Origin: Aurantiochytrium sp. KH105
Taxonomy: Eukaryota; Sar; Bigyra; Thraustochytrida; Thraustochytriidae
NCBI GenBank assembly: GCA_003116975.1
Contig: BGKB01000014.1
Span: forward strand, 204,601-268,600
Length of the DNA stretch: 64,000 bases
Reading direction: 5' to 3'
A program made the position numbers and the translations under genes. Each line of letters opens with the position of its first letter. The first letter of the stretch is position 1. Below are positions 1 to 19,945 of the stretch, in pieces. The notes beneath the pieces are model-generated. The model worked only from the letters and a program-made list of their open reading frames with translations, was not told where the DNA came from and did no database searches.

Positions 1-14
1 ACATACCATACCCA

Positions 15-1305: not shown

Positions 1306-1535
1306 TACATTATTTTTTTCTTTCTCTTTTTATCTTACAAAAAAGGCCCAGGTCCTAACGCTGGTCTTTCTTTTCCTCCACACCACATTTGCAGGCATGC
1401 ATGTATGAGAAATCCCAGACACAGCGTGGTGCCAGTCCAGTGACAATTTGTTGCAGGCTCACGAAAATAAAGTCTACCTGATGTAGACACAAAAGTACAG
1501 CAACGCCTCTCCGCAAAAAAAACAAAAAAAAATCT

Positions 1536-1631
1536 CAGCTGGCTAGCGAGAAGAATCGTTTTGGTCCCCAAAAAGAATACTTCACAGCTAGCCAGCGAGA
1601 AGAATTGCTTGGCTCTCAGAAGGAATGCTCA
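1536..1631. repeat. Diverged local duplication, period 48 bp
   Basis: Two successive segments start with cagct(g/a)gctagc/agccagc followed by gagaagaat and later aagaat/aggaat. The second copy starts at 1584. The copies are clearly related but diverged. No coding meaning is seen. Confidence 0.45.
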
Positions 1632-1746
1632 CACATTCCTAAAATCAGAGGCTCTTTCTACAAACGCCCTCTTCCCCCCCCTGTTCGACCACAAAGATTG
1701 GAGGTATCATCAACAACCCCCTTTCCTTCCCAGTGCACCTTGCTGA

Positions 1747-2895
1747 TTACCAGGAAAAGTTGGCCCATGCACGCAAGTTATCTTCGTCTCGCGTTACAAT
1801 ATGCTCGTTAAAAATGGAAAGACACGATTCCACCGTCGGCAAGGGGATCTCGACCTCCTTTGCAGGTGTGTCCAGAAGCGAGACGTCGAATGTCGGGGAA
1901 AGTGCTCGGCAAATGGCTTCAACACCTCGCGTGGTGGCCTTGCCCGCTGCAAGCTCGGCAAACTCATCCGCAAGGGCCGCTGCAAGTCGCTTATCGGCCA
2001 CGAGCTGCGTCAGCATATCTTGCGCTTCGTCGCGATCCAGTGCAGGACACAGGATTCGCTTGTCAAAACGGCGTCGTAACCCAGCATCCAAGGCCCAAGG
2101 TCTACTTGTTGAACCAAGAACGAGGAGTCCTCGAAAATGATCATTGTTGGTTTCACGAAGGCCATGGAAAAGCTCACTACGAACTGCCGCAACGCGCCTT
2201 TTGCAGGCCTTGAACTTTCGTCCACCTGATAGATGGACAACCTTGTCCTCGTCCACCACTTGCTCATTGAGAAAATCAAGATCTTCGAGAATGAGGACGC
2301 TCGTACGCTCGTCACGTTGTCTGCGAGCTGCATCTTTGAGCGCTTCTTGCATCAATTGAACGCCTTCTGAAGCAGACGTCACCAGCTCCTTGCATCGAAG
2401 AATGCGTACAGTTGTTGCTGGTGCGAGTGGCTCAAGCATTCGAACAAGATCCTCGAGTAGAAGCGTCTTGCCGCAACCGTGAGGGCCATACAAGAGGCAA
2501 GCGTTCCAAAATCTTCTCTTCTTCGTGTACAGAGATGGGAATCGCGCAGGTAGGATGATTTGTTCACGTACGAATGTTAGGGCCTCGCGAAGACCAAAGA
2601 TCCTCCCCGATCCTGTGAGCAATGGTACTTGAGACGCTGCAATGCCTTTGTCTTGTTGGTCCTCTTTCGCAGGCTTTTGCATCTGCAAGGACAGCTCTTC
2701 GAGAAGATGACTTCGGATCTCGTTCTTGCGTCTTTCAAGGGCAACGAGCAGAGATTTCACCTCATGTGCACTTGAATCAACTGCGCACATATCGGCTAGC
2801 ACTAGCACTGCCTCTTCATAGATTTGAGCCGCTCGCGAAAACTCTCCAGCTGTATCGAGTCGCAGCGCCTCTTGCACGGTACGCTCAACATCCAT
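1747..2895 (-). CDS. VPS4-like MIT-AAA protein with degenerate ATPase motifs
   Basis: The 382-residue protein starts with an MIT-like helical region (about residues 1-75, with the AGEFSRAAQIYEEAV helix) followed by one AAA module laid out as in VPS4: GLREAL-VREQIILPARFP, then Walker A GPHGCGKT (137-144) and LRRRFDKR with the arginine fingers (about 273-280). VPS4 disassembles ESCRT-III on endosomes and at the cytokinetic bridge. Several signature positions differ here: the Walker B pair is Glu-Asp (204-205) instead of Asp-Glu, sensor-1 Asn is Ser (264), and the aromatic pore-loop residue seems lost. I infer a specialised or inactive paralogue rather than the housekeeping VPS4. The ATG at 2895 is chosen because an open extension upstream offers only a GTG. 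Its 5' end faces the CAMTA gene across about 970 bp. Confidence 0.7.
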   Translation of the reverse strand: MDVERTVQEALRLDTAGEFSRAAQIYEEAVLVLADMCAVDSSAHEVKSLLVALERRKNEIRSHLLEELSLQMQKPAKEDQQDKGIAASQVPLLTGSGRIFGLREALTFVREQIILPARFPSLYTKKRRFWNACLLYGPHGCGKTLLLEDLVRMLEPLAPATTVRILRCKELVTSASEGVQLMQEALKDAARRQRDERTSVLILEDLDFLNEQVVDEDKVVHLSGGRKFKACKRRVAAVRSELFHGLRETNNDHFRGLLVLGSTSRPWALDAGLRRRFDKRILCPALDRDEAQDMLTQLVADKRLAAALADEFAELAAGKATTRGVEAICRALSPTFDVSLLDTPAKEVEIPLPTVESCLSIFNEHIVTRDEDNLRAWANFSW

Positions 2896-3865
2896 TTTCT
2901 GAGTCACCGCGGCGAAGGTGGGTGGGGGGGGGGGAGGGTGGGGCAGGGCAGGGCGATCTTCGTTTGACTATCTTGAGAGATAATCAGGCAGGGGGCTCGT
3001 TTGTCCCCAGGATCCTCCTTTTTCGGCGTCGGTCAATGAACCTGCGAGAGGTCGACGCCCGTTCTCCCGGCGAACCCCTCAACCTTGAGGTCCCAACTGC
3101 GAGGCCTGTTGCCCGCGAGAGTCTGGCATCCAAGAATGTGTACGGACGCACGCCTTGCCGTGGTACGCAAGCTCGAGCCACGCCCGATGCATCACTGGAT
3201 ATTGATTTATTTATTCATTCATTTATTCATTTCGTGTCACTCCGCGTCCTTCATTCATTCATTTGCCCGTTATTGTGGCAGGTCTAGGCCCTACTACCAC
3301 GGCGTATAGGCCTATACTTCAAGTTGCGCCTGCCAGTGACTGCCAGTGTCGCGTACTACTGCAATAACCCTCTTGCAAACCGGCTTATCGTCCCCACTTT
3401 CACAGTATACAACAATCTATTCCCACCACCGGGTTCCCGGCCGCTGGCGAGTGGCCGGGGCGGCCGGCGGAACGGTCGCGGCGGCCTGACAGTGAAGGAA
3501 GTGAAGAATCGCTCATAAAACCCTGTGGCGGCGCGTCCCAAGTCGCGCTTGGCGCCCGCCAGACAATGAACTTGAAGGTTTTCTCGTGTTCTGTTCACAA
3601 TGGTAGCGGTATACCGTATACTTTCTCGAGGGCTGGGCCTGGAGAAAACAGGAAAACGGGAAGAAGAAGAAGAAGCTGACTGTGAGTCTGACTGACTGAC
3701 TCCGCCGGGAGAGAGCAAAGCAACAGACCACGCTCCCACGCTCGCTCCCGGCGCCCGCTCGGTGTCCGCCGGCGCACGCGCGGCGGCAGCGGCAGCCGGC
3801 GGCGACTCCGGCGACCCGCCCGGCGCGGCCCCGCGCAGCGCGCGGCGAGGCAGCCCCGCGGCGGG
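2896..3865. promoter_or_regulatory. Divergent intergenic region, VPS4-like / CAMTA
   Basis: 970 bp separating two genes transcribed away from each other, so it should hold both promoters. It contains a G-run (2925-2945), an ATTC/ATTT simple repeat (about 3205-3265) and a GC-rich near-palindrome around ggccgctggcgagtggcc (about 3440). No intron, RNA gene or known promoter motif is recognised. Confidence 0.5.
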
Positions 3866-6800
3866 ATGCAGAACCGTCATCAGAACGTGCGAGGGCTCCA
3901 CGGCGGCATGCCGTACTACGGACACGTGGGCATGGCGCCGGCGGCGGCGGCGGCGCAAGGGTACATGGCGCCGCACCCCGGGTACGGCATGGGCGTCCCG
4001 TACCACCCGCAACAGGCGCAGCAAATGCACATGATGCACGCTCACGGGTACGTGCCGCATCCCCATCACGTGCACGCGCAACAGGCTTGGGCTGCCTCCA
4101 ACGCCGCGGCCTCGGCGGCGGCTGCAGCCTCCGCGAGCAAGAGCAAGAAACGCGGCAGCGGCGCCCGTAAAAACTCTCCAGCCACAAAGAAGAACGGGAA
4201 TAACGCGAACGATCGCTCCGCAGGCTCTGCAAAGGGTATCGTCACCTCGAAAGTAGAGCTTCGCTTTATTGTCGAGGCCGCCAAGCGAAGGTATCTCGAC
4301 GCGCACGCCGTGCTGTTTCTGCTCGAAATGGGCGCCAAGGGCGACATCCAGCCTCTGCAAAAGGTCCAGCGGAGACCGCCCAGTGGTAGCATCTTTCTCT
4401 ATGACCGCTCGCGGACACCTCAGTTTCGCGTCGACGGCTACGACTATGTAAAGAAGAAGGGAAACGCTGCTGCTGTGCGCGAGGACCACGTCAAACTCAA
4501 GTACGCCCACGAGGAGCGCATCTATGCATGCCATGTGCACTCGCAAGAGCGCGAATCCATGCATCGTCGTAGCTATTGGGACCTCAAGAATCGCAACAAT
4601 CTCATTCTCGTGCACTATTGGGACAGCGCTGTCGGTGCGCATGAAACCCATCCCATGGACTGTATCTGTATTGGCTGCACGCTCGAAATCGAAGAAAAGG
4701 GACCTACGTCGGCCAGAGCAGCGCCCGCCGTGGTCCAATCGAGCGCCTCAGCAAAGACTTCGACCACTCACCACACTCATGAAACTGACGCCGCAAGTGC
4801 GACGGATAAGCACGCGCTGTCGCAAACTTCGGGTTCGGCGTCGCGTCCTCCCGCCTCGCAAACATCATCCCGGCCCTCGGCGCTGCAGCCTGCAGTTCAG
4901 GGACTTTCGGGCACACACCGAGACGACGATCCACTTGGCGATTTACACGATGACGATGATTTCGAAACGCTGAAACTGGACGACCTCAAGGACGATCCGC
5001 AATTACTCCCACATCACCACGATGAACCTTCCGATTTGTCGGGGAGCGTGTCTTACGTCAAACCAGAACCTGAACTGTACCCCTTATCCGAAGCGGAGAG
5101 CGCCGCGCAAACGCGCGATGATGACGAAGCAGTGCACGACTTTTTGCACGATTTGAATGCCTTCGACATGGGGATGCCCCGGTCGCCAGAGGTCGTTTCC
5201 TTGGTTGACGTGAGCTCTCTCGAGGTTCAAGATCTGGCTCCTGACGTGGCGAGTGTCAACGGAGGCACGAAGATGCTCATTTCTCTTGCCAAGATCGGCG
5301 GCGAGCCCTTTTCAAAGTCTATGCTTTCGGTCACTGTCGAGAACGTCGACGTTATTTTCGGGGACTCGTCCGTGGTCAAAGGCTTCATAATGGCCAATGG
5401 AGTCGTTCGCTGCAAGACGCCCTCAATACGCCGCAACACTCGCGTTCCTGTCCAAGTCGCAATCAACGGTATGACCATTTCGCCTCGCGGAGGGTCGCCG
5501 CCACTGTGTGTTCACTTTTGCCTGTACGATAGACTCGAAGTCGCTGCTCCACCACCATTGAGCAACCTCCGCACGCGCCTAAGCGCCACGAGTAGCGCAA
5601 GTCCCGCCGGGACGCCGACTTCGCAGAACTCAGCCCCGCGCAGTTTGCTAAAGCGCAAACGGAGCCGGAAGCTACTGTCGCCCGTCCCAGGGGCAAGCTG
5701 CAGTGAAGGCGAGGACGGAGACGACCCAGATATGGACGAACTCAATGACGAGGAACTCACGGAACTTTCCGAGTCTCTTCTCGAACGTGTCGTCAAGGTT
5801 CTGGTGGATCTTTGTAGTGAGGAGAATGATTTGCTTGGTGAGCTCGACGCGCTCGACGATTCTGGCTTTAATCTTCTGCACTATGCGGTGGCCTTTGGCC
5901 ATGTCAAGCTGGTCAAGCTGCTTCTTAATCATGGTGCGGATCCAAACAAGGTCACATCAACGGGTGATGCGCCGCTTCATTTGGCGGCGGAGGTCGCCGA
6001 TATGGATGTCGTGGGCGCCCTCTTGCACGCGGGAAGCGACACCAGTTTGCGCGACGCCTCGGGACAAACCCCGGGAGACCTGGCCGAAATGCACGGTGTT
6101 CCAGAGCTTATTCATTTGCTGCGCAACGAAGGCGCCGTGGCGCCGACCGGCTCGCCCGATGACGGCGGGCAGAATCCGAAAGAGTCACTCGAGGACAAGC
6201 AGCAAAAGATGCTTCGAAAGGCGCTTGCCTCGATGAGCCTCAAAGACCGCTGCGCCCTCTCCCTTGGCGTACGTGATGGCGACGTGGCCTCGGTGACAGG
6301 GAGTGGGTCAGAGCCCAGCCACTCACGGACGAGCTCGTTTGCGGGCCCAAGCCCCGACGCAAATCCAAGTACCTCTGGCGGGGCTTCGCCCGGTGCTAAG
6401 AGCGTTGGTCTTGGCGCCATGGCCGCGTCTTCGTCGTCATCGTTCTCGTCTGCCTCTCTCTCCTCCATGGCGGCCGCGAACCTCGACGGCGGCGAGGCCA
6501 GAACATCGTTGACGCCAATCAAGAGCGAGTCACTCGAGCACCCACGCGAGTCTGCCAAAGTAAAGCAGATTGTATCGGAGCAAGAGCCAAACCTGGTTGC
6601 GGTCATGTCAAGTTTGAATGACGAGGAGCGTCAAGAGCTCGAGGTTGAGGCGCGAATCATCCAGTCAAACATTCGTCGATGGCTTTTGCGTCGCAGCGTG
6701 CAGGCCACGCGCAAGGTGCAAACAGAAACAAAGGGTTTTCGCAAGGAAAAGGAAAAGGAAAAGGGAAAGCTCGATATCGAAGAAAAGGCCACAAAGGTGC

Positions 6801-7330
6801 AGGCCGTGAGTAAGGGATTTCTTGCTCGCAAAGAGTATCGCCAGGCTCGCCAGGATGTAATCCAGGTCCAGGCGGCAACGCGTTGCCTCTTGGCGCGTAA
6901 AAACTTTCACGCTTGGCGCCGACAACTGAGCGCTACCCTTGTCATTCAGCGCTCAATCCGAGAAAGGCGTCGACGTATCCACGAGCAGGAGTCTGCAGAT
7001 CACCAGGACACGCTCGCGGGTCACCAACTGGATACGTCTGCGGATCATCACATGGAAGCATCTGCCGAACATCACATGGAGGCACCTGCTGATTACCACA
7101 TGGAGGCATCTATCGATAACCACATGGAGACATCTGCGGAGCACATTGTGAAGACCCCTGCGGAACACCATGACGACAGTTTGATGGAATCTGCTGATCA
7201 TCCTGGCGCTTTGGGAGAAACAACAAGCTATGAATACGGCAGTCTGATGGGGCCTGCGGATCATCAAAGCAACCAACTCATGGAACCTGCGACTTTTGAA
7301 GACAATGTCATGGAGTCAGCGGAACCCTGA
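3866..7330 (+). CDS. CAMTA: CAMTA-type calmodulin-binding transcription activator
   Basis: The 1154-residue protein has the CAMTA order of domains. After a His/Ala-rich start and a basic stretch (KSKKRGSGARK, about 90-100) comes the DNA-binding CG-1 domain (about 130-255, with RFIVEAAKRRYLDAHAVLF, KVQRRPPSGSIFLYDR and RRSYWDLKNRNNLILVHYWD). A TIG/IPT fold follows at about 450-560, ankyrin repeats at about 665-760 (LLHYAVAFGHVKLVKLLLNHGADPN) and IQ motifs at about 925-1040. CAMTAs are nuclear factors that couple calcium/calmodulin to transcription. The acidic segment at about 355-430 may be an activation region. The C-terminus carries an unusual repeat, listed separately. The gene has no intron. 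The ATG at 3866 opens the frame; the region before it is extremely GC-rich. Confidence 0.9.
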   Translation: MQNRHQNVRGLHGGMPYYGHVGMAPAAAAAQGYMAPHPGYGMGVPYHPQQAQQMHMMHAHGYVPHPHHVHAQQAWAASNAAASAAAAASASKSKKRGSGARKNSPATKKNGNNANDRSAGSAKGIVTSKVELRFIVEAAKRRYLDAHAVLFLLEMGAKGDIQPLQKVQRRPPSGSIFLYDRSRTPQFRVDGYDYVKKKGNAAAVREDHVKLKYAHEERIYACHVHSQERESMHRRSYWDLKNRNNLILVHYWDSAVGAHETHPMDCICIGCTLEIEEKGPTSARAAPAVVQSSASAKTSTTHHTHETDAASATDKHALSQTSGSASRPPASQTSSRPSALQPAVQGLSGTHRDDDPLGDLHDDDDFETLKLDDLKDDPQLLPHHHDEPSDLSGSVSYVKPEPELYPLSEAESAAQTRDDDEAVHDFLHDLNAFDMGMPRSPEVVSLVDVSSLEVQDLAPDVASVNGGTKMLISLAKIGGEPFSKSMLSVTVENVDVIFGDSSVVKGFIMANGVVRCKTPSIRRNTRVPVQVAINGMTISPRGGSPPLCVHFCLYDRLEVAAPPPLSNLRTRLSATSSASPAGTPTSQNSAPRSLLKRKRSRKLLSPVPGASCSEGEDGDDPDMDELNDEELTELSESLLERVVKVLVDLCSEENDLLGELDALDDSGFNLLHYAVAFGHVKLVKLLLNHGADPNKVTSTGDAPLHLAAEVADMDVVGALLHAGSDTSLRDASGQTPGDLAEMHGVPELIHLLRNEGAVAPTGSPDDGGQNPKESLEDKQQKMLRKALASMSLKDRCALSLGVRDGDVASVTGSGSEPSHSRTSSFAGPSPDANPSTSGGASPGAKSVGLGAMAASSSSSFSSASLSSMAAANLDGGEARTSLTPIKSESLEHPRESAKVKQIVSEQEPNLVAVMSSLNDEERQELEVEARIIQSNIRRWLLRRSVQATRKVQTETKGFRKEKEKEKGKLDIEEKATKVQAVSKGFLARKEYRQARQDVIQVQAATRCLLARKNFHAWRRQLSATLVIQRSIRERRRRIHEQESADHQDTLAGHQLDTSADHHMEASAEHHMEAPADYHMEASIDNHMETSAEHIVKTPAEHHDDSLMESADHPGALGETTSYEYGSLMGPADHQSNQLMEPATFEDNVMESAEP
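7003..7190 (+). repeat. 24-bp coding repeat at the CAMTA C-terminus
   Basis: About seven imperfect 24-bp units encode an octapeptide close to SAEHHMEA (ADHHMEAS, AEHHMEAP, ADYHMEAS, IDNHMETS, AEHIVKTP). The His- and Met-rich repeat directly follows the IQ motifs and is not part of the usual CAMTA architecture. Confidence 0.75.
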
Positions 7331-7682
7331 GAGGTGAGCGGAAACACAACGTTGGATGAGCTTTAGTGCACCTCGCCTCTTCCACGCACTTTGCCTGCAG
7401 CAGACCAGAGCATTCTTTTCTGCAAAAGACGTCAAAAGAGCAGGAAAGTAAACAAACAAGCAAGGCGATCCATGTTGACCATATCTTTGCAAATTAATCA
7501 CGAGATGTCTCGTGTAATATCAGATCGCATGGTTGTGTGTTATCTGTTCGAAAATGAATATGAAAGGTGATGGCTGCGTAAAATAGAATCAGTGCGTAGC
7601 TGGCTCCTGTGTAGAACCGCTTCTCATCTGTTACTTTTGCAGAAAGAAAAAGAAGAGGATGAAGGTGGGCGGGAGGTTCAAC
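7331..7682. other. Convergent 3' flank, CAMTA / ALAD
   Basis: 352 bp between the stop codons of two converging genes. The sequence is AT-richer than the genes and has no open frame of note. It should hold both 3' untranslated regions; no clear polyadenylation signal can be named. Confidence 0.6.
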
Positions 7683-8720
7683 TTAACGCCACTTGGGAAT
7701 CATGTCGAGGAGCTCCGGTGTAAAGTAAGTAATGAGAATTGAAGCTCCTGCGCGCAAGAGACCAACATGCGACTCCTTGAGAACGCTCTCCAGATCACCA
7801 GCACGCTTTGCGTAGTCTTGAAGCATGACGTACTCGCCGGAAACGATGTAGCAGGCGATGGGCAAAACCGAACGCTGTGCATACTCCTTGATAATATCGC
7901 CGTAGAAAAGCGCTGGTTTGACGAGCACAACGCTCGCGCCCTCGGACTCATCGCGCGCCAATGCCTGCCTCGCGTGCAGAATGGAGCCCACAGGCTGCTG
8001 ATACCGCTTGCGATGACCCGTAAAGGTGGAATCAACGGCGGCGCGAAAGGGCGAGTACATGGTGGAAGCCTTCTTGCTCGTGTACGCCATCACGCCCACA
8101 TGACGAAAACCATTTTGGTCGAGCTTCTCGCGAATCGTGTGAATGCGGCCATCCATCATATCACTTGGGCACACGTACTCGGCGCCGGCCTGAGCGTAGG
8201 CAAGAGCGACGTCGGCGAGAATGTCAATGGTGCGCTCGTTATCAATGACGTCCTCGTGATCGCCTGCAACCTCGCGCAGCACACCACAATGCCCATGGCT
8301 CGTGTACTCGCACATGCAGACATCGCACATGACGAGCATCTCGGGCAAAGCAGCCCGGATCGCTTTGGTGGCCACGATGACCGGAGTGTCGTCGGCAGCT
8401 GCCATGGATCCTTCAGGGTCCTTGTCCTTGACGACGCCAAAGAGCATGACGGAGCGAAGACCCTTTTCCCCGAGCTCGCGCAGATGCTTGATGAGACCCG
8501 GGTATGGCTCGGCGCCATCCCCGACACCCCACTGCATATTGGGCGAGAAACCTGCGATGGGCTTGTCTTCCGCCTCGAGCGTCACAAAGAGGGGGTACAC
8601 GAGTTGGCTTGCGTGCAGGTGCGGCTCGGTCCATTCACGCGACACCGAAGAGTGCAGGCTGGCGTGCAGGCCGGTGGCCCGGCCGCTGCCGGCCTCCGAA
8701 AAGCTCCTCGAGGGCTCCAT
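7683..8720 (-). CDS. ALAD: Delta-aminolevulinic acid dehydratase (porphobilinogen synthase)
   Basis: The enzyme condenses two 5-aminolevulinate molecules to porphobilinogen, the second step of heme synthesis after ALA. The 345-residue product has the zinc triad in CDVCMCEYTSHGHCG, the two Schiff-base lysines in MAYTSKKAST and VLVKPALFYGDII, and the ending AGASILITYFTPELL. Cysteine ligands mark the zinc-dependent animal/fungal type; plastid enzymes have aspartates there and use magnesium. This fits a host without a plastid and a cytosolic enzyme. The ATG at 8720 is used because the longer frame begins at a TTG. It lies upstream of, and on the same strand as, RPL8. Confidence 0.93.
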   Translation of the reverse strand: MEPSRSFSEAGSGRATGLHASLHSSVSREWTEPHLHASQLVYPLFVTLEAEDKPIAGFSPNMQWGVGDGAEPYPGLIKHLRELGEKGLRSVMLFGVVKDKDPEGSMAAADDTPVIVATKAIRAALPEMLVMCDVCMCEYTSHGHCGVLREVAGDHEDVIDNERTIDILADVALAYAQAGAEYVCPSDMMDGRIHTIREKLDQNGFRHVGVMAYTSKKASTMYSPFRAAVDSTFTGHRKRYQQPVGSILHARQALARDESEGASVVLVKPALFYGDIIKEYAQRSVLPIACYIVSGEYVMLQDYAKRAGDLESVLKESHVGLLRAGASILITYFTPELLDMIPKWR

Positions 8721-9297
8721 GACAGGCAGTGGAATCGGTTCTCCGCGCTGCGCTGCGCTGCGCGTGCAAGACGAGGTGACCGACAAATAGCGGTGCGTGC
8801 GTCCGCAAGCAAGCGAGTGGCGTATGCACGCGAGGTGATCTCGCTTTTCGCCGATGAATGCGCTTTGCCTGAAAGCGAGCGGTAGGCCGACGTCTGAACA
8901 CTACAAGCAAATCTTTCTTTCTTTTCTTTTTTCTTTTTCTTTTTTTCTTTCTTTGCGTGCTTTCCTCTTTGAGGGCGGGGTCAAGTTCTGTGGCCACGAT
9001 GATCGTGCGAGCGGACTGTGGCCATGCCGAGGAGCGAGGTCCACAGACCTGACTCGATCTTGATGAGAAAGGCGTGTGCATGGGCAACCGCTCTGCTCGA
9101 CTTCTTGCCAAACATCAAGCGTGTGCAAGCAAGCAAGCAAGAGAATCAACAAGTGGACAATTCCAGAGGGACTACTTGACTCAATCAAGAGGGAGGTCCC
9201 CTTGGTAGACCGTCTAAAATGAACAAGAAGAGTCGTCAAGAGAGGGAATACTTCAAGGAGAAATCCGGCAAACGTAAGAAAGAATAAGTGCACTCGC
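8721..9297. other. Intergenic region between ALAD and RPL8
   Basis: 577 bp between the ALAD start and the RPL8 stop, both genes on the minus strand. It must hold the ALAD promoter and the RPL8 3' end. A 45-bp T/C-rich tract (8905-8960) and an AGCA/AGCAAGCA simple repeat (9120-9142) are visible. No further gene is seen. Confidence 0.5.
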
Positions 9298-10538
9298 TTA
9301 CTCGTCCTTGGCAGCAGTGCGACCACGGTGGAGACCAGTGCGGCGGGCGGCGATGAGACCGACGCGCTTACCGGCGGGTGCGTCACGCTTGACGGTGGAA
9401 GCATGACCAATGTGCTGGTGGTTACCACCACCGTGGGGATGCTCAACAGGGTTCATGGCAACACCACGGACCTTGGGCCACTCGTTACGCTTCACGCGGT
9501 ACTTGTGAAAGGCGGCGCCAGCCTTGAGGAGAGGCTTGTCCATGCGGCCACCACCGGCGACGAGGCCGACCATGGCGCGGCAAGCCGAGGGGAGGATCTT
9601 CTTGTTGCCCGAGGGGAGGGCGACCTGGGTCTTCTGGTTGTCGACGTCGTGGATCTTGATGGTGCAGTACTCGCCAGATGCCTTGGCGATCTTGCCGCGG
9701 TCACCGGCGGTCTGCTCGAGGCAGCACACGACGGTACCCTCGGGGAGGGCGCTCAGGGGGAGGATGTTGCCCACATCCATCTTTGCCTTGGCACCGGCGT
9801 AGATGAACTGGCCAGTGTAGGTGCCCTCGGTGGCCACCATAAGCTCCTTGTCCTTCTTGAACTTGTACGGGTTGCGGAAGTGCACGACGGCAAGGGGGGC
9901 ACCACGACCGGGGTCATGGAGGATGTCCTTGACGACACCCTTGAGGTAGCCATGGCGCTCACCGTAGTCGAACACGCGAAGCTTGGCAGCACCCTTGCGG
10001 GTGTGCGTGTGCGACTGTAATCATCAAAGAGGGTTAAGAGAAAGCGTGGTCAGTCAATCGTTCGTTCATCCAATCAATCCTTTGCTGGATCGTTCTTTCG
10101 GTCGTCCATCTTTGCTCGCTCGGCTAGCTGACGGTCTACGTGGGGAGCGATAGACTAAGCGTCATGGCCTCACAGCACGCAGGTAGCCAGCCATCCAGCC
10201 AGCCAGATGTACAGCCAAAAGAGACATCTCTCTCAATCACCGCGACCTCGTCCTCATCGCGACACACGCAGACACTGGGTCACGCAGGCAGGGAGGTAGG
10301 CCAGCAGACGCGCACGTCGTCCTGTCCTCTCGTGGCCACCAAGAGCCACGACGGCCTCGCCTGGCCTGGCCTGGCCTGCCCGCCCGCATGCCCAGATGCC
10401 CATGTCAATGTCGCCATCGCGCCGGCGCGTCCGTCTGCGCGAGGCGGACGGACGCGAGGCCCGGGCCCCGCCCGCGCTGCAACCTACCCTGAAGATCGGC
10501 GAGGCGCCCTTGCGCTGCGCGCGGATGATGCGGCCCAT
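9298..10538 (-). CDS. RPL8: 60S ribosomal protein L8 (uL2), two exons
   Basis: Exon 1 (10488-10538) encodes [17 protein letters not shown] and exon 2 (9298-10014) continues [23 protein letters not shown], giving 255 residues, close to the 257 of human RPL8. The join restores the family sequence exactly. The 473-bp intron (10015-10487) starts GTAGGT and ends TTACAG after a CTTAAC branch-like site. uL2 lies at the peptidyl-transferase centre; the conserved histidine loop [16 protein letters not shown] is intact. The gene is head to head with TYW1 and has CACTTGCGC boxes 165-220 bp upstream of the ATG. Scanning for open frames alone would miss exon 1 and start falsely at a GTG. Confidence 0.95.
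10015..10487 (-). other. RPL8 intron
   Basis: Phase-0 intron after codon 17, donor GTAGGT, acceptor TTACAG. The intron is very GC-rich in its 5' half and contains AGCCAGCC/CTGGCCTGGCC simple repeats. No snoRNA box pair was recognised in it, although ribosomal protein introns often host such RNAs. Confidence 0.85.
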
Positions 10539-10757: not shown

Positions 10758-11336
10758 CCGCCGCCGCCCGCCCCGCGCCTAGCGCGCGCCTAGCGGGCCC
10801 TAGCCAGCCGCGCCGCGGGGGGCGGCCTACCCTAACCCTGGGTGCGCAACGCGGAATGGCAGGCGTTCTCCGTTCTTCCCGGGGCGCGCGGGGCGCGCAA
10901 GGCGCGCAAGCAGGGCGGGGGAGAACGTTCCGGGGCGGCGGGGGCGCGAAGGCGCGCAAGCGGGGGGCGTTCTGTTCCGGGGCGGGGGCGGCGCAGAGCG
11001 CGGCGCGGATCCGCGCCGGTTCCGCGCCGGTGCCGCGCGAGGGAGGAATTTGGGTGGCACGCACATCGTCGCTCGCGGCGGAGTTCCGGGCGTCGAGACT
11101 GGCAGACCGAGACCGCGAGCGAGGCTGGCGCGCCGGCGAGCGGGGGCGGCCTGCGCAGAGACGCGGGCGGGCGGGCGAGCGAGCGAGCGAGCGAGGGTTT
11201 TTCTGCGCGGATTGGGCTGGTTGTTCACGCCGAAGAGGCTCGCGGACGACTCGGGGCTCTTGGACACGGGATTCTGCAACGAGAAGACCTTGCTTGGCCT
11301 TGGCGAAGAGCGAAGACGTTGACGACGAGGAGGAGC

Positions 11337-11367
<31 letters not shown>

Positions 11368-11442
11368 CGGGAAAAGGTGCAAAACGTCGGTGTCTGCGTG
11401 CACGTGATTGTGTGGATCTTGACGCTTTGCGCAGAAGATATC
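10758..11442. other. GC-rich leader region upstream of TYW1
   Basis: 685 bp of very GC-rich, simple DNA: gcgcgc runs, a GCGA repeat near 11170-11192, and an AGGAGC repeat at 11336-11366. Long open frames on both strands here are a by-product of composition. It probably holds the TYW1 promoter and leader. No other gene is seen. Confidence 0.5.
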
Positions 11443-13548
11443 ATGTCGGAGACGGGTCGCGCCGTGGCCGTCGGCGTGGCGGCCGCTGTCGGCGTGGCTG
11501 CGATTCTGGGCTGGAAGGGCGTCCTTGCTGCGCGTGAATCTGGCGCCGTCGAAGAAGCCATCGAAAAGGCCGCCGGGGCAGTACGCGACGCCGCGGAAGC
11601 CACCGTGAAAGCCGTGAACGCTGCCGCGACCCCGCTCTTGGCGAAGCAAGAGGATGCCGGCGCTAAGACCAAGGTTGTCTACGCCACGACGACGGGGACG
11701 GCGAAGCGCGTTGCAGAGATTATAGCAGAAGGTATTTCGGGAGGCGAGGCAGTGTCCGCCGACGTCTACAGCTTCGCCGACGACCTCGAGGATGAGGCGG
11801 TGGTCATTTTTGTCATGCCCACCTGGACCGACGGAGATGCCCCGGAAAGCGGGCAACCCCTGTTGGCGTGGCTGGAAGACATGGTGCAGGACTTCCGCGT
11901 TGACAAGTCGCGTTTTCTTGGCAAGGTCAAATTCGCAGTCGTGGCCCTGGGCAGCAGAGAGTATGGCAAGGGCCTCTTTTGCCGCACGGGATGGCGGCTC
12001 GATGAGGCGGTCGGGAAACTTGGCGCGCAGCGGCTCTGTTTGCCGATTCTTGTCGACGATTCGGACTCCCGCGCCAAGATCGACAATTTGGGCGGCCGCG
12101 TCCGTGCCGCAATTGAGCGCAATGAGACGGTCGCCTTGCCTGAAAAACCAAACAGGGGCCAGCGACGCAAGGCTATGCTTGAGGAGACAAAGGCAAGCCC
12201 GTTGGACGACCAGGAGGACCGTGTGAACGAGATGATGCTCGACGATATGGAGGACATTGTCGTCGTTGGCAACACTGCGGCCGAGCCGGGGGCAGAGAGG
12301 CCCGACATGGTGACGAGCTCGCAGCGCAAGGCTCTTACCAAGGAAGGCTACAAGATTATTGGAACGCACTCTGCTGTCAAGCTTTGTCGCTGGACGAAGC
12401 ACCAGCTTCGCGGGCGCGGCGGCTGCTACAAGCACACCTTTTATGGTATCACTTCATATCAGTGCATGGAGGCAACGCCCAGTTTGGCTTGCGCCAACAA
12501 GTGCGTCTTTTGCTGGCGGCATCACAAGAATCCCGTGGGTCGAGAGTGGCGCTGGAAAGAGGATGAGCCTGATGCCATTGTCGAGCAGGCCGTGGACCTG
12601 CATTGCAACATGATCAAGCAAATGAAGGGTGTTCCCGGCGTCAAGCCCGAGCGTCTGCAGGAGGCCTTCAATGTTCGTCACTGCGCGCTCTCGCTCGTGG
12701 GTGAGCCCATCATGTACCCTCGTATCAACGAACTTATCGACGAGCTGCACGCCCGTCAGATATCCACCTTTTTGGTCACAAACGCCCAGTTTCCGGACGC
12801 CATCCGTAATCTGCAGCCCGTGACGCAGCTGTATGTGAGCGTGGACGCTGCGACCAAGGACGCTCTCAAGGAGGTTGACCGGCCTCTTTTCAAGGATTTT
12901 TGGGAGCGCTTCACAGGAAGTCTCGAGTCTCTTCGTGATAAGGGCCAACGGACGGTGTACAGACTGACTCTGGTGAAACAGTGGAACATGATGGAGGATG
13001 AGCTTGATGGATACGCCAAACTTATTGAACTTGGTCAGCCGGACCTAATTGAAATCAAGGCTGTCACCTATTGCGGCAAGTCGGACGCCTCGAACTTGAC
13101 GATCGAGAATGTGCCGTGGCACGAGGAGGTGCGAATGTTCGCCGAGGCCATTTGCAAGCGCACAAATGGGGCTTATGGTACCGCCTCCGAGCACGTACAC
13201 TCTTGCTGCACGCTGCTTGCGCGCAAGGATATCTACCTGGCGCCGGACGGCGAGACGTGGCGCACGTGGATCGACTACGACCGCTTTCACGAGCTTGTGG
13301 CCGAGTACAAGGCATCCAATGGCGAGAAAAAGTTCACTTCTCGCGACTACCTGGCCGACACGCCCGAGTGGGCCGTCTGGGGCGCTCCCGAAGAGGGCTT
13401 TGATCCGGTTGAAAGTCGATTTCGTAAAGCTCGCAAGTCAACGGCTGACGATGCTTCGACCGCATCCGTGCGTCCGCCCGTGGGTCTCCCGCCCTCTAAA
13501 GCACGCCTTGCCCGTGAGTCCAAGAATCTCGAGGATGTCGCCGAATAA
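11443..13548 (+). CDS. TYW1: tRNA wybutosine-synthesising protein 1 (TYW1)
   Basis: TYW1 uses S-adenosylmethionine radical chemistry and pyruvate to turn N1-methylguanosine-37 of tRNA-Phe into 4-demethylwyosine. The 701-residue protein has a flavodoxin-like FMN domain (about 75-235, starting KVVYATTTGTAKRVAE) and a radical SAM domain whose cluster ligands are C350, C354 and C357 (CANKCVFC). HCALSLVGEPIMYP, LYVSVDAATKDAL and EIKAVTYCGKSDASNL follow in the family order. The first 25 residues form one hydrophobic Gly/Ala-rich segment (GRAVAVGVAAAVGVAAILGW), a likely membrane anchor, as in animal TYW1. The ATG at 11443 is preferred to an upstream GTG. The C-terminal 40 residues are polar and not conserved. 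Confidence 0.93.
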   Translation: MSETGRAVAVGVAAAVGVAAILGWKGVLAARESGAVEEAIEKAAGAVRDAAEATVKAVNAAATPLLAKQEDAGAKTKVVYATTTGTAKRVAEIIAEGISGGEAVSADVYSFADDLEDEAVVIFVMPTWTDGDAPESGQPLLAWLEDMVQDFRVDKSRFLGKVKFAVVALGSREYGKGLFCRTGWRLDEAVGKLGAQRLCLPILVDDSDSRAKIDNLGGRVRAAIERNETVALPEKPNRGQRRKAMLEETKASPLDDQEDRVNEMMLDDMEDIVVVGNTAAEPGAERPDMVTSSQRKALTKEGYKIIGTHSAVKLCRWTKHQLRGRGGCYKHTFYGITSYQCMEATPSLACANKCVFCWRHHKNPVGREWRWKEDEPDAIVEQAVDLHCNMIKQMKGVPGVKPERLQEAFNVRHCALSLVGEPIMYPRINELIDELHARQISTFLVTNAQFPDAIRNLQPVTQLYVSVDAATKDALKEVDRPLFKDFWERFTGSLESLRDKGQRTVYRLTLVKQWNMMEDELDGYAKLIELGQPDLIEIKAVTYCGKSDASNLTIENVPWHEEVRMFAEAICKRTNGAYGTASEHVHSCCTLLARKDIYLAPDGETWRTWIDYDRFHELVAEYKASNGEKKFTSRDYLADTPEWAVWGAPEEGFDPVESRFRKARKSTADDASTASVRPPVGLPPSKARLARESKNLEDVAE

Positions 13549-14571
13549 GTAATCTATTTGCAAGCATCTTGTATTTTGTGTAGCATGGAGAGTCTTCTTT
13601 ATCCTTGGTCGCGTGGAATTTCTACGAGACTGCAGGCTGCGGCTGGCCTGGCTAACGTTCTATCATCGATACTGCTTGATGCAAACTAGCAAATCAGGAC
13701 GCGAGCTGCCGAATTGCAGCTTTGCAGCGGCAAGCTGCAGCTTTAGTTCGAGAATGTTTGTCAGCCAAGGTCGCATTGCGGCGGCAAAGTCCAGATCCGC
13801 ATCGCAGCGGCAGCTGCAAGGAGCGACGTCGGGTTTGGGATGTATCCATGCACGCTCGGAGTCAGCAAAGGTCGTGGCCACAACAGGCTCACGGCGGCCC
13901 TCGAAACGTTCCTACTTGAACCAAGACGATTTGTGCGGGTGTTACCAACGCGAGAGCTCTGCCCTGCACTCATGTCGCATGGGGCAACATTAAATTCAGA
14001 AACGGATGGCCAACCTGCCATGCTAGATGGCCGTGCAACCATTTCATGTTGACGGTGCTCCTTTGCAATGTGGTAATGGCATACTTGACACCGAAGCACT
14101 GCGTCACTGCAGCGGCACAGTCTCCTTCGTTGTCCAAGAGGATGTATAAACTGCACAATATGAAAGTTGATCGCCGTCGACGCTTTGACAAGGTGGCAGC
14201 TTTGCATCCCGATTGACATAACGTAAAACAAAGCTGGGGAGAGGGCTATGTCAAGATCGCGGGTGAAATCCTGCAATAAGGGCATGACGAAGCCCGCGAG
14301 AAAGTGACTTTTCCGGAAACAACGACACGGTCTTTCTCTCTCAAGGGCCGGTATCTGAAGCAAGGCTTAATCCGCTGCGCAGCATGATCTGTTCGTATCC
14401 TTTCAAATTTCAAATAAGAGAGCGAGAGAATATAGATTTTACGCTTAAGGTTAACCTTGCTTGAGTATCATGCCTGGGGTGCATTCGAAGTTATGCAACC
14501 GAGTCATTTTGTCTTGAATTTTGATCGTGGTGATGGGTGTGGTTGATGAGCAAAGATAGAGGGACCTTTTA
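13549..14571. other. Intergenic region downstream of TYW1
   Basis: About 1 kb of lower GC content than the genes. A 200-codon minus-strand frame at 13761-14363 has no recognised domain and its composition is unlike the neighbouring proteins, so I do not call it. GCAGC/GCTGC-type short repeats occur at 13690-13830. Nothing else is seen. Confidence 0.5.
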
Positions 14572-14610
14572 TTAGAACCAGATGATTGGGACGAAGATGG
14601 GAATGATCAT
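14572..14610 (-). CDS. Micro-ORF M1 (MIIPIFVPIIWF)
   Basis: Twelve codons from ATG to TAA on the minus strand. It is the most diverged member of the short-frame family: it shares IFVPII and the terminal F with the nine-codon members but has extra residues on each side. It lies at the left edge of the tandem array. Translation is not shown. Confidence 0.3.
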   Translation of the reverse strand: MIIPIFVPIIWF

Positions 14611-15121
14611 TTTGAAAAGTTTTTTCGACGTGGCAAGAGCTTCAATTCACGACGAGAGCAGAGTTGCAGGTTTGGAGCTCACTTATGAGCCATCGCATGC
14701 TCACAGCGTCATGGCGTCACGAGGCCACGTTTCAGCTGATTCTTTCGATTTCATTTTCCGCAAGCAAGGCCTATTCCTCAGAAAGGAAAAGCTCACGCGC
14801 TGATAGTACCGCTTTTGCATACGTGCACGGTCTACAACGTTGGGCCAAATCGCGTATTGAGCTGAATGAACGTGCCCCGCATCCGCCAGGGCACTTTCGG
14901 CTCTTTTGTCCATTTGGGGGGATTCACTGTGGGGAAATATTCAGCGTAAAGTGGAAGTCCCAGGAAAGTGCCGAATGCGGGCCTCCGACCCGATTGAGAG
15001 ACCATCCGTGGAAGTCGAGGCGATGATGAAAGCAAATCTGCAACCTCAAGCACTCCATCAAGCCAAACAAGTCCTTACGATCAGCCACCGATCACTCTAA
15101 AGCAAGAAACCCCAAAGCATC

Positions 15122-15151
15122 ATGTGGATCTTCGTCCCGATCGTCTTTTAG
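15122..15151 (+). CDS. Micro-ORF P1 (MWIFVPIVF)
   Basis: ATG to TAG, nine codons, in the diverged left end of the array. The tail frame has a stop shortly upstream. It pairs tail to tail with M2, whose stop lies about 390 bp to the right. Confidence 0.35.
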   Translation: MWIFVPIVF

Positions 15152-15538
15152 ACACTCAAGTGACTCGAAATTCACAAGTATCGTCGAGAACATGCAATCA
15201 GCCCTGAGCTCTATCCTCCTGCTCATGCATCTCTTAAAAGTCAGCTGACAAGAAGCGCAATAATATTCTATCTATCTGTTCTTTTCTACGCATTCTCATT
15301 GTTGTCCCCCGTGACGCGGTCACCCGTTCGCGCCCCTATCTGTCGCTATTGCCACGTCGCTTGGAGTCGCTATGGACAGCATCAAGTCTCGCGCCAGTCT
15401 CGGCAAAGAATAGCGTTTCTGTGCTTTACAAGTGCTTTACAAGTTGTGATTGAACAAGTTGATAAATTTTCAAAAGCGAGATGAAGATGACTTTGGGGTT
15501 CTTAGCAGTTTGCTATCTGTCCAAAGCTGCCTGGGCGC

Positions 15539-15568
15539 CTAGAAGATGATCGGTACGAAGATCCACAT
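15539..15568 (-). CDS. Micro-ORF M2 (MWIFVPIIF)
   Basis: ATG to TAG, nine codons. The same frame stays open about 35 codons upstream (ending ...SQVETSQKN before the ATG), so this could instead be the C-terminal tail of a longer, possibly spliced protein. Confidence 0.35.
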   Translation of the reverse strand: MWIFVPIIF

Positions 15569-16054
15569 GTTCTTTTGCGAAGTCTCGACTTGCGAGCTGC
15601 TTTGCTTGACTTGATTTCTTGGCTTGTGCTTGAGGCTCTTGCTGTTGTGGGTTTGCTTCGTTCGAGGACGAGCTTATCCACCACAACCTCGACCGCTTGG
15701 CATGGTCACCATGATCGATGGGTCGGAGGCCTCGTTTCGGCGCGGGCAGACTCGAGATCCTTCTCGTTGCTGAACAGGCTCTCATTGCGCGCATGCCTTT
15801 TCACCCGACGCGATCTGATTCTTCGTGTGACAAATGTCAGCCTGTTTTTAAAAGTGACTGTGGGAATGGTTCAGCGCGCATGAGAAGTCCCAGCCGCAAG
15901 CGCCGAATGAGTGACTCCAACCCAATCGAGGTACGATCTTGGAGAAGCGGAGCGAGCAGCCAAAGCAGACCTGCAACCTCGAGCACTCCATCAAGCCAAA
16001 CAAGTCCTTACGAGCAGCCACCGAGCACCCTAGAGCAAGAAACCCCAAAGCGTC

Positions 16055-16084
16055 ATGTGGATCTTCGTCCCGATCGTCTTTTAG
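16055..16084 (+). CDS. Micro-ORF P2 (MWIFVPIVF)
   Basis: ATG to TAG, nine codons. A possible short intron could join an upstream exon ending SDSNPIE (donor GAG/GTACGA at 15930) in frame to SKKPQSV-MWIFVPIVF (acceptor CCCTAG at 16032). The acceptor is not preserved in P1 or P4, which weakens the spliced model. Confidence 0.35.
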   Translation: MWIFVPIVF

Positions 16085-16472
16085 ACACTCAAGTGACTCG
16101 AAATTCACAAGTATCGTCGAGAACATGCAATCAGCCCTGAGCTCTATCCTCCTGCTCATGCATCTCTTAAAAGTCAGCTGACAAGAAGCGCAATAATATT
16201 CTATCTATCTGTTCTTTTCTACGCATTCTCATTGTTGTCCCCCGTGACGCGGTCACCCATTTGCGCGTCCAGCTGTCGCCATTGCCACGTCGCTTGGAGT
16301 CGCTATGGACAGCATCAAGTCTCGCGCCAGTCTCGGCAAAGAATAGCGTTTCTGTGCTTTACAAGTGCTTTACAAGTTGTGATTGAACAAGTTGATAAAT
16401 TTTCAAAAGCGAGATGAAGATGACTTTTGTAGTTGTTAGCAGTTTGCTATCTGTCCAGAGCTGCCTGGGCGC

Positions 16473-16502
16473 CTAGAAGACGATCGGCACGAAGATCCAC
16501 AT
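16473..16502 (-). CDS. Micro-ORF M3 (MWIFVPIVF)
   Basis: ATG to TAG, nine codons. Like M2, the frame continues upstream as a lysine/glutamine/serine-rich stretch to a TAA. Confidence 0.35.
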   Translation of the reverse strand: MWIFVPIVF

Positions 16503-16988
16503 GTTCTTTTGCGAAGTCTTGACTTGCGAGCTGCTTTGCTTGACTTGGTTTCTTGGCTTGTGCTTGAGGTTCTTGCTGATGCGGGTTTGCTTCGGTCGAG
16601 GAAGAGCTTATCCACCACAACCTCGACCGCTTGTCATGGTCACCATGATCGATGAGTCGGAGGCCTCGTTTCGGCGCGGGCAGACTCGAAATCCTTCTCC
16701 TTGCTGAACAGGCTCTCATTGCGCGCATGCCTTTTCACCCGACGCGATCTGATTCTTCGTATGACAAATGTCAGTCTGTTTTTAAAGGTGACTGTGGGAA
16801 TGATTCAGCGCGCATGAGAAGTCCCAGCCGCAAGCACCGAACGAGTGCCTCCAACCCAATCGAGGTACGATCTTGGAGAAGCGGAGCGAGCAGCCAAAGC
16901 AGACCTGCAACCTCGAGCACCCTATCAAGCCAAACAAGTCCTTACGAGCAGCAACCGAGCACCCTAGAGCAAGAAACCCCAAAGCATC

Positions 16989-17018
16989 ATGTGGATCTTC
17001 GTCCCGATCGTCTTCTAG
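16989..17018 (+). CDS. Micro-ORF P3 (MWIFVPIVF)
   Basis: ATG to TAG, nine codons, with the same upstream context as P2, including the CCCTAG acceptor-like site. Confidence 0.35.
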   Translation: MWIFVPIVF

Positions 17019-17389
17019 ACACTCAAGTGACTCGAAATCTACAAGCACAGTGGAGAACATGCAATCAGCCCTGAGCGTTGCTCTCTCGCTCATGCAGGTT
17101 TAGAAAGTCGGCTGATAAAAAATGGAAATATTCTATCTATCTATCCTTTTTCACGCATTCTCATTGTTGTTTTCCGTGACGCTGTCACCCGTTCGCGCTT
17201 CCAGCTGTCGCCATTGCCACGTCGCTTGGAGTCGCTATGGACAGCATCAAGTCTCGCGCCAGTCTCGGCAAAGAATAGCGTTTCTGTGCTTTACAAGTGC
17301 TTTACAAGTTGATAAATTTTCAAAAGCGAGATGAAGATGACTTTTGTAGTTGTTAGCAGTTTGCTATCTGTCCAGAGCTGCCTGGGCGC

Positions 17390-17419
17390 CTAGAAGACGA
17401 TCGGCACGAAGATCCACAT
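17390..17419 (-). CDS. Micro-ORF M4 (MWIFVPIVF)
   Basis: ATG to TAG, nine codons, with upstream context as in M3. Confidence 0.35.
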   Translation of the reverse strand: MWIFVPIVF

Positions 17420-17905
17420 GTTCTTTTGCGAAGCCTTGACTTGCGAGCTGATTTGCTTGACTTGATTCCTTGGCTTGTGCTTGAGGTTCTTGCTGATGCG
17501 GGTTTGCTTCGGTCGAGGAAGAGCTTATCCACCACAACCTCGACCGCTTGGCATGGTCACCATGATCGATGAGTCGGAGGCCTCGTTTCGGCGCGGGCAG
17601 ACTCGAAATCCTTCTCCTTGCTGAACAGGCTCTCATTGCGCGCATGCCTTTTCACCCGACGCGATCTGATTCTTCGTATGACAAATGTCAGTCTGTTTTT
17701 AAAGGTGACTGTGGGAATGATTCAGCGCGCATGAGAAGTCCCAGCCGCAAGCACCGAATGAGTGCCTCCAACCCAATCGAGGTACGATCTTGGAGAAGCG
17801 GAGCGAACGGCCAGAGCAGACCTGCAACCCCGAGCACCCCATCAAGCCAAACAAGTCCTTACGAGCAGCAACTGAGCACCCTAAAGCAAGAAACCCCAAA
17901 GCATC

Positions 17906-17935
17906 ATGTGGATCTTCGTCCCGATCGTCTTCTAG
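17906..17935 (+). CDS. Micro-ORF P4 (MWIFVPIVF)
   Basis: ATG to TAG, nine codons. The upstream acceptor-like CCCTAG of P2/P3 reads CCCTAAAG here, so an in-frame splice is not available although the nine codons are intact. Confidence 0.35.
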   Translation: MWIFVPIVF

Positions 17936-18314
17936 ACACTCAAGTGACTCGAAATTTACGAGCACAATTGAGAACATGCAATCAGCCCTGAGCTCTATCC
18001 TCCTGCTCATGCATCTCTTAGAAGTCAGCTAATAAGATACGCACATTCTTTCTATCTATCCTTTTTCACACATTTTCATTGTTGTTCCCCGTGACGCGGT
18101 CACCCATTTGCGCGTCCAGCTGTCGCCATTGCCACGTCACTTGGAGTCGCTATGGCCAAATCAAGTCTCGCGCCAGGCTCGGCAAAAATAAAACGTAAAA
18201 CGTTTCTCTGTTTTACAAGTTGTGATTGAACAAATTGATAAATTTTCAAAAGCGAGATGAAGATGACTTTGTGGTTCTTAGCAGGTTGCTTTCTATCCAA
18301 AGCTGCCTGGGCGC

Positions 18315-18344
18315 CTAGAAGATGATCGGTACGAAGATCCACAT
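18315..18344 (-). CDS. Micro-ORF M5 (MWIFVPIIF)
   Basis: ATG to TAG, nine codons, in the diverged right end of the array. The upstream region shared by M2-M4 is interrupted here by a CTGG/AGCC expansion and an in-frame TAA, yet the nine codons are unchanged at the protein level. Confidence 0.35.
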   Translation of the reverse strand: MWIFVPIIF

Positions 18345-19945
18345 GATTTCTTGATAAGTGCTGGCTAGCTGGCTGGCTGGCTGGCTGGCTAGCTCGCTGG
18401 CTGGCTTGACTTATTCTCTGGGTTTGTGCTTGAGGCTTCCGTTGTTGCGGATTTGTCTCATCTGCCGCAGCCGCCAGCCATGCCTATAAATGGGTCGGAG
18501 GCTTCGTTTCGGTGCTCGTGGACTCGCACTTCTTCTCGTTCTGAACCTTGGCCCTCGATCGAACTCTCGAGCGTAATATATTAACATGTAAGTGAGTGTC
18601 TCGGGGGTGCAACTACGATCGCGCACGCGACTGCTCGTTCAGTTACATGAGTGTCCCATCCCTGCCTGCATCTTCTCCTAACTGAACTGCGTTCCGTGCC
18701 CTGGGCAACACAGCATAGTCGATTCATTCCATACTGTCAAAATACAGAACAGCGCGTTCGATCGAATCCTGAGCTTTCATACGCTCGATCCCGTACTCGT
18801 AATCAAGTTCAAAAGAGGACCTTCGACCGCCGCCGAATACGCGAAAATGTGTCCCAAACGGAAGAGCCAGAACTTCACACTTTTTGTTTGCAACCCAAAA
18901 TGGACAGTACTGAATCGTGGCCTTGTTGATAAAACATCTCAGACTATCGGCAGCAGACAGCAGCCAAACTTTTGCTCGCCTCGTCGGAGTACGTGTTTCG
19001 TTGCTTTGCTCTGAATGCGATTCGTCTTGCCATACATTACAGCCAAGAAGAAAGAGGGGTAACACAGGGAAGAACGAAGAAGGCCCTGGGCACCGAACTT
19101 GCGCTTCTGATGCATCGAGGAGCTGACAGGCGGTGCCGGCAGTAGCTCGGCATCTGGCCAAGCAAATCCGCAACTACAAAGCCTCAACGCGCAAAAGCAA
19201 GACAAGCAAGACACGCAGATCAAAACGAGACAACCCACCTTACAAGAACCATGTGGATTTTCGTTCCCATCATCTTCTAAATGGCCGTCCCACATGGATC
19301 GCAAAGCCTTGTGGTATAAGCGTAAACCATAATTTATTGATCCTCTTTGGTTGTTCAATATTCTTTTGTCCGCGTGCTTGCGATCTGTTCAACGTGTTAT
19401 TGCTGGAGAAAAGGCATGGGTCCACAGATTTTCGCTCTCGGCAGGACTGAAAAGGGCACGAGAGGTCGCGTGAATCGAAAAATCCTGACATGCGCTGGTT
19501 TGAAAGGCTAGTGTTCAGAGAGCTTATCCAATGGCCCCCTTTCGGCTTGCCATCTGAACGTGAGACGACACGACACTTGCTCATAATCCAAGACAAATTC
19601 ACAACTCTGCATTCCAAGGCATATCTCACCAGCTGCAATCCGTCTCCTATATCGTTGCTATTTCACGCACCGGCCATCGTCGTCGCCATCGCCGTCATTG
19701 CCGCCAACGTGCACGCGGGATGCGAGCTCAAGACGGTCTTCGAAATAATGATAGTCCTTCGCAATCCTAAGATAGCAAACCATGTTTTCGTTCGAGGACA
19801 GATACCTGTCTGAACAACGTTGCCACTCCCGCTGGAAAAGGGTGAAAGCTCTCCGTCACGTCATCGTGGATGGTATCTCTCCGACTAGAAGAGAAAGAAC
19901 GAAAAGCAAGAAAAAAAAAAAAGGCAAAACCGCAAAAGGCGGGCC
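18345..19945. other. Right flank of the array; no recognised gene
   Basis: About 1.6 kb. The first 220 bp are a decayed array copy. A CTGG/GGCT simple repeat covers about 18360-18412. A 92-codon plus frame at 18651-18929 and a 105-codon frame at 19133-19450 have no recognised domain; the latter runs through micro-ORF P5 in another phase. The last 150 bp before 19946 are A-rich and probably form the leader of the next gene. Confidence 0.5.
19251..19280 (+). CDS. Micro-ORF P5 (MWIFVPIIF), outside the array
   Basis: ATG to TAA, nine codons, about 0.7 kb beyond the last array copy. The flanking DNA is unrelated to the array units, yet compared with M2 the frame differs only at third codon positions (ATC/ATT, GTA/GTT, CCG/CCC) and in the stop codon (TAG/TAA). 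Confidence 0.4.
   Translation: MWIFVPIIF

Follow-up and report, generated by a model that had tools for sequence, protein, structure and literature searches.

In plants, ENOD40 is a short RNA whose frame has about 12 codons. Other very short coding or regulatory frames are described in the available excerpts of their sources: the function of the insect gene tarsal-less, or polished rice (tal), is carried by 11-residue peptides from small open reading frames (smORFs), and the gene was first deemed non-coding (PMC3334604); mccA, the microcin C7 gene of E. coli, encodes a heptapeptide (PMC11241378); the ribosome-arrest leader ErmCL has the motif MGIFSIFVIS (PMC13410324); and the arginine attenuator peptide belongs to a peptide-dependent upstream open reading frame (uORF), with stalling at the uORF stop (PMC11550727). 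Here we describe an array of comparably short frames in the thraustochytrid Aurantiochytrium sp. KH105, found in a window of 64,000 nucleotides (C14:204601-268600, contig BGKB01000014.1); positions below are those of the window unless another contig is named. Between a TYW1-like gene and a leucine-rich repeat (LRR) gene, the window holds nine exact copies of MWIFVPI[I/V]F and one 12-codon relative.

None of the short-frame systems compared is known to have the sequence or the layout of this array. The tal peptides are of about the same length, but their motif is unrelated in sequence to the nonapeptide, which is hydrophobic; moreover, tal is polycistronic, with family frames in series on one RNA, whereas in the array the strands alternate and each frame, with an upstream block of its own, is apparently a separate gene in a head-to-head pair. 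The mccA gene also encodes fewer than ten residues, but it is bacterial, specifies a different peptide and lies in the maturation operon mccABCDE, whereas the array has no such operon with modification or export genes and no modification gene next to it. Arrest leaders and uORFs are likewise very short frames whose peptide sequence matters, and ErmCL is hydrophobic too, but the RNA that carries them also has a main frame after them, whereas no common same-strand frame of at least 15 codons follows the array copies, 18 with those of the second haplotype, within 400 nt. A literature search did not find the string MWIFVPI, nor any paper that combined four or more of the features smORF, tandem array, head-to-head, micropeptide, nonapeptide and protist; among the matches listed for thraustochytrids there was nothing on such genes.

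We consider it probable, though well short of certain, that the frames are monocistronic micro-genes, arranged as five head-to-head pairs, and that their product is a hydrophobic nonapeptide, free and unprocessed, with an action in trans. The ten very small protein-coding genes would be transcribed from divergent promoter regions, one for each pair, and the presumed mRNAs would have a leader of roughly 75 nt and use the first AUG. All nine canonical frames lie where the original prediction had placed them, on both strands, match the degenerate pattern without mismatch and translate as claimed, and the 12-codon relative is present as well. Start and stop codons (TAG or TAA) are kept in 18 of 18 copies, each a start-to-stop frame of 9 or 12 codons and thus far below the smORF limit of 100. 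With plus-strand copies named p and minus-strand copies m, the order in the window is m0, p1, m1, p2, m2, p3, m3, p4, m4, p5, which gives the pairs (m0,p1), (m1,p2), (m2,p3), (m3,p4) and (m4,p5); the other haplotype has four. The span from start codon to start codon is 487 bases in the three inner pairs, 512 in m0-p1 and 907 in m4-p5. Since the strand alternation amounts to head-to-head pairing, the 12-codon relative (m0) and the outlying copy p5, whose flanks are strongly diverged from those of the other plus copies, become the two end members of the array. This layout had been missed by the original prediction, the interpretation of which is supported in part.

The array is confined to one locus and its allele. 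The assembly searched comprises 76.0 Mb in 367 contigs, and contains 16 canonical frames complete with their stops, nine of them in the window and seven on contig C289; widening the pattern to admit the relative raises the count to 18 (16 canonical frames and two relatives), all at these two places. Allowing up to three mismatches to the canonical pattern added no copy in the whole assembly, and WIFVPI matched there in the 16 canonical frames and nowhere else, although repeat counts from pattern searches can be lower bounds. In 100 shuffles no match arose, even at three mismatches, so that no exact match would be expected by chance. Contig C289 is taken as the other allele because it matches both flank and array: its positions 5-3460 agree with window positions 10955-14431 at 94%, and its positions 3468 to 9990 run through the array, with a match up to window position 21801. 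Near-equal pairs of PfaA-like polyketide synthase parts on different contigs (C72/C155 and C290/C61) suggest a diploid assembled as two haplotypes; the best PfaA-like match scores 930 bits, under the curated cut-off of 1010, and sub-cut-off matches also occur in 11 of 14 control genomes, so that these matches, like the long uninterrupted frames of the assembly, agree with a thraustochytrid only weakly. The text of the draft genome report, in the part available, gives 76.7 Mb, 512 scaffolds and a diploid state for strain KH105, with differing figures in its table (PMC5924542); an excerpt of another paper calls all its other strains haploid (PMC11951076).

Selection on the peptide, claimed by the original prediction from the window copies, is supported, and the case for it is strengthened by the second haplotype. 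At the two ends of the array, where p1, p5, m4 and m0 of the window can each be paired with an allele on C289, 6 of 129 frame sites differ and all six differences are synonymous, where 21-24% of random changes would be expected to be so; the chance of this outcome is ~0.0002 given the transition share of the flanks. The flanks of the same four pairs differ at 203 of 1,969 aligned sites (10.3%). The six positions reported to vary among the nine window copies (9, 15, 18, 22, 27 and 30) are confirmed, and the other haplotype adds position 12. Over the 16 canonical copies, at least nine synonymous changes stand against one non-synonymous change (Ile/Val), so that there are two peptides in all (binomial 8e-6), and all four bases occur at the third position of the Val codon. 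The other two sense frames of the 30 bp (+1 and +2) each give 1 synonymous to 8 non-synonymous changes. Counts over copies are minimum counts and the copies are linked by gene conversion; therefore these P values serve as guides, and the allelic test is the cleaner one. Representatives of three diverged groups point in the same direction, with the frames matching at 29, 25 and 25 of 30 bases, whereas other 30-nt segments within 400 nt, at offsets within 40, match at 20, 19 and 21 at most. Within this one genome, the pattern is what purifying selection on a peptide would leave, and for so short a frame the coding evidence is strong.

Could the 30 bp instead be a DNA or RNA element, such as a binding site, a guide or a structured RNA, that is open by chance? 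Near-identical copies on both strands and several fairly conserved third positions would suit such an element, but 9 of at least 10 changes are synonymous in a single codon phase, the Val third position is free and the allelic changes are synonymous without exception, all of which makes it very unlikely. A structured RNA was ruled against in particular: in four stretches, z lay between -1.18 and 1.28 and the native fold was equalled by 24-186 of 200 shuffles, by 24 even for the best stretch, p5, and an Rfam search gave no match at gathering score.

The upstream regions bear on how the frames would be expressed. The original prediction had held the flanks of plus, minus and outlying copies to be unrelated and similarity to end at the ATG and the stop. 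Gapless similarity does drop just outside the frame; the flanks nevertheless proved related, since an alignment of the 18 upstream regions reveals two stretches common to all copies. One is a leader block close to CAAAYCYGCAAC, present in 18 of 18 and placed 75-77 nt before the ATG in 14, the distance being 52 in both m0 copies and 99 and 107 in m4 and its allele; the pattern used is loose and fitted to the alignment, and a stricter one matched 1 place. The other, close to GCRCCGAANNGNRNCCTCCRACYCAWY, is found by pattern search in 13 copies and is aligned but diverged in the remaining five. At up to three mismatches, 21 matches to this element were reported, 13 of them at the locus or its allele and eight elsewhere, all at three mismatches; a wider regulon was considered and dropped, eight being little above the five of a reversed control. 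No ATG occurs between leader block and micro-ORF in any of the 18 copies; if transcription begins near the block, as we infer, the micro-ORF start would therefore be the first AUG. The leaders are A/C-rich and T-poor, as many gene starts of the window are, with 8-15 T per 100 in the nine canonical window copies. The m4 leader carries a CAGC-type repeat (18360-18406) whose length is specific to the allele, the other haplotype having the longer version.

Besides a free nonapeptide, which we favour, the original prediction had offered a C-terminal tail attached to polar proteins as an option; whether as a tail or as the last exon of such longer proteins, this second option now seems hardly credible. 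Upstream of the seven canonical minus copies the frame does stay open, for 22-101 codons, and gives a polar sequence, but that reading arises because the leader DNA is CAAG-rich. Moreover, 6 of 18 copies have an in-frame stop 7 codons upstream, in none of the 18 does the frame, followed back from the micro-ORF start, contain another ATG before it reaches a stop, an acceptor-like pyrimidine tract is not seen upstream in the alignment, as judged by eye, and the exact WIFVPI pattern is absent elsewhere in the genome.

Equally improbable is that another frame codes and that the micro-ORF is its shadow. The three antisense frames of the 30 bp score 2 to 8, 7 to 2 and 0 to 9 (synonymous to non-synonymous), and some plus copies are overlapped by antisense frames that reach 103 codons in length. 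The favourable 7 to 2 is a consequence of register, and that frame was rejected: its first codon is a stop in each of the three forms seen, and the Val form (11 of 16 copies) has no ATG in the 30 bp. The 103-codon frame lies in the register that scores 2 to 8 and shrinks to 44, 91, 50 and 31 codons in other copies. On the plus strand, 140-codon frames pass through p2, p3 and p4 in another reading frame (15718-16140, 16652-17074 and 17569-17991); these too were rejected, with 3, 5 and 3 synonymous against 18, 21 and 9 non-synonymous pairwise changes and with counterparts in the other haplotype that stop after 62 and 74 codons. None of these frames explains one peptide in plus, minus and outlier copies alike. 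Left of m0, the minus strand has a 174-codon frame that starts at 14285, whereas the frames listed there in the other haplotype reach at most 83 codons; this frame and the 140-codon frames are taken as chance frames. The tail, the DNA or RNA element and the antisense and overlapping frames are thus all disfavoured.

A weaker but more serious alternative to a free peptide acting in trans is that the nonapeptide is translated and works in cis, by arresting the ribosome at the stop or by controlling RNA decay; the output would then be the RNA or a frame farther along it. We regard this as rather unlikely. Conservation reaches right to the stop codon, as it might in an arrest peptide, and ErmCL and the arginine attenuator peptide are, in the excerpts cited above, precedents for short ribosome-arresting leaders; an 18-codon frame begins 40 nt past the stop in four of nine plus copies, and the LRR gene starts 666 nt past the p5 stop, outside the 400 nt compared. 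On the other hand, no frame of at least 15 codons starting within 400 nt is common to the 18 copies, and ten copies of a cis element that lack a common target gene would be hard to explain. As main frames of a uORF, the 18-codon frame and a signal-peptide-like frame beginning MKMT were discarded, each being missing or altered in some copies.

The first of these reads MQSALSSILLLMHLL[K/E]VS after p1, p2 and p4 (15192-15248, 16125-16181 and 17976-18032, plus strand); one allelic copy has an 18-codon frame of different sequence at the same spot, and the other plus copies have none of at least 15 codons. The short signal-peptide-like frames lie in the convergent spacers (15481-15549, 16414-16476, 17331-17393 and 18257-18325, plus strand) and extend as far as, or into, the antisense sequence of each minus micro-ORF; the reading differs between units, being MKMTLWFLAGCFLSKAAWAPRR in the spacer of p4 and MKMTFVVVSSLLSVQSCLGA in two units, and on the other haplotype they are listed for one allelic copy only.

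The product of the micro-genes would then be free, unprocessed MWIFVPI[I/V]F (MIIPIFVPIIWF from the left end copy), most likely acting in trans by binding, as a small hydrophobic ligand, to a membrane or a protein, and possibly as a signal from cell to cell. Nine residues are too short for a membrane-spanning helix and leave no room for a signal sequence plus a product; an exported, unprocessed hydrophobic ligand or pheromone-like signal would fit the size, the hydrophobicity and the dosage. That the array is a dosage-amplified set of divergent micro-genes for a pheromone-like nonapeptide signal of a protist, with a complete coding sequence of 30 bp and no precursor protein, is a possible but doubtful extension of the model. 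Codons ending in C prevail at Ile and Phe (ATC at Ile3 in 15 of 16 copies and at Ile7 in 16 of 16, TTC at Phe4 and at Phe9 in 14 of 16 each), a preference like that of the V-ATPase A gene (ATC 0.81, TTC 0.67) and stronger than in the other four genes counted (ATC 0.41-0.53, TTC 0.22-0.41). Dosage and codon choice together hint at high output.

The array itself was probably formed by tandem amplification of a divergent unit, followed by partial homogenisation. Among the five full units, similarity is 92-96% inside a haplotype and 87-88% across the two, which is the mark of concerted evolution; the copies would thus have been partly homogenised within each chromosome, and least so at the end members m0 and p5.

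Several points weigh against the model of a free peptide acting in trans. Because of gene conversion the copies are not independent, and the safest test, that of alleles at the array ends, rests on six changes only. Conservation inside the array is by itself not decisive: in the five full units the frames are 96.7% and 96.0% identical, where 30-nt segments reach 90% at the median and 96.7% at the 95th percentile, and the frames come only near that percentile because whole units are recent copies. The Ile and Phe codons mostly end in C, so that selection on the peptide may be mixed with some constraint on DNA or codons. A scarcity of T does not set these leaders apart, T ranging from 1 to 26 where 12 other genes of the window presumably start. 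An exact search with the degenerate pattern gave 0 matches in viral contigs and likewise 0 in the genomes of bacteria and archaea. Finally, copy number and the lack of a common downstream frame are the two observations, and the only ones, that argue for action in trans.

Frames this short are below the usual limits of gene finding; in the thraustochytrid genome paper, as far as its excerpt goes, the transcript contigs regarded as putatively full-length carried frames of 450 bp or more (PMC5924542). If translated, the micro-ORFs would rank with the shortest independent protein-coding genes that any eukaryote has. The locus offers an unusually clean test of selection, since it has many copies on two strands and in two haplotypes, with flanks that are strongly diverged, and it makes both minimal gene size and the capability of a nine-residue product directly testable. 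The features of the array are collected in the table.

Table. Micro-ORFs and associated features of the array, in window positions
Feature	Positions	Strand	Basis
m0, 12-codon relative, MIIPIFVPIIWF-stop, left end member	14572..14610	-	1 synonymous difference from its allele
p1, MWIFVPIVF-stop	15122..15151	+	pattern match, translation
m1, MWIFVPIIF-stop	15539..15568	-	pattern match, translation
p2, MWIFVPIVF-stop	16055..16084	+	pattern match, translation
m2, MWIFVPIVF-stop	16473..16502	-	pattern match, translation
p3, MWIFVPIVF-stop	16989..17018	+	pattern match, translation
m3, MWIFVPIVF-stop	17390..17419	-	pattern match, translation
p4, MWIFVPIVF-stop	17906..17935	+	pattern match, translation
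m4, MWIFVPIIF-stop; longer leader with CAGC-type repeat	18315..18344	-	pattern match, alignment, translation
p5, MWIFVPIIF-stop with TAA; right end member	19251..19280	+	pattern match, translation
Leader block of p1, CAAAYCYGCAAC type, 77 nt before ATG	15033..15044	+	alignment, loose pattern
Promoter-like element of p1	14968..14994; counterparts 15900-15926, 16834-16860, 17751-17777	+	2-3 mismatches to consensus
Promoter-like element of m1	15717..15743; counterparts 16651-16677, 17568-17594, 18489-18515	-	0 mismatches
Divergent intergenic region m1/p2, presumed shared promoter region of one pair	15569..16054		layout and upstream elements
Convergent spacer between p1 and m1 stops, presumed 3' regions	15152..15538		no frame common to all copies

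No frame of at least 200 codons lies between the TYW1-like and LRR genes. The TYW1-like protein that adjoins the array (11443-13548, plus strand) has flavodoxin, radical SAM and wyosine domains. Farther along the window, 16 kb from the array and with several other genes between, a ThiF-family (E1-like) protein of 315 residues is encoded at 35764-36711 on the plus strand. A single open frame of 5,052 codons occupies 40961-56119 on the minus strand and, over its N-terminal 2,000 residues, resembles dynein heavy chain by matches to N1 and N2.

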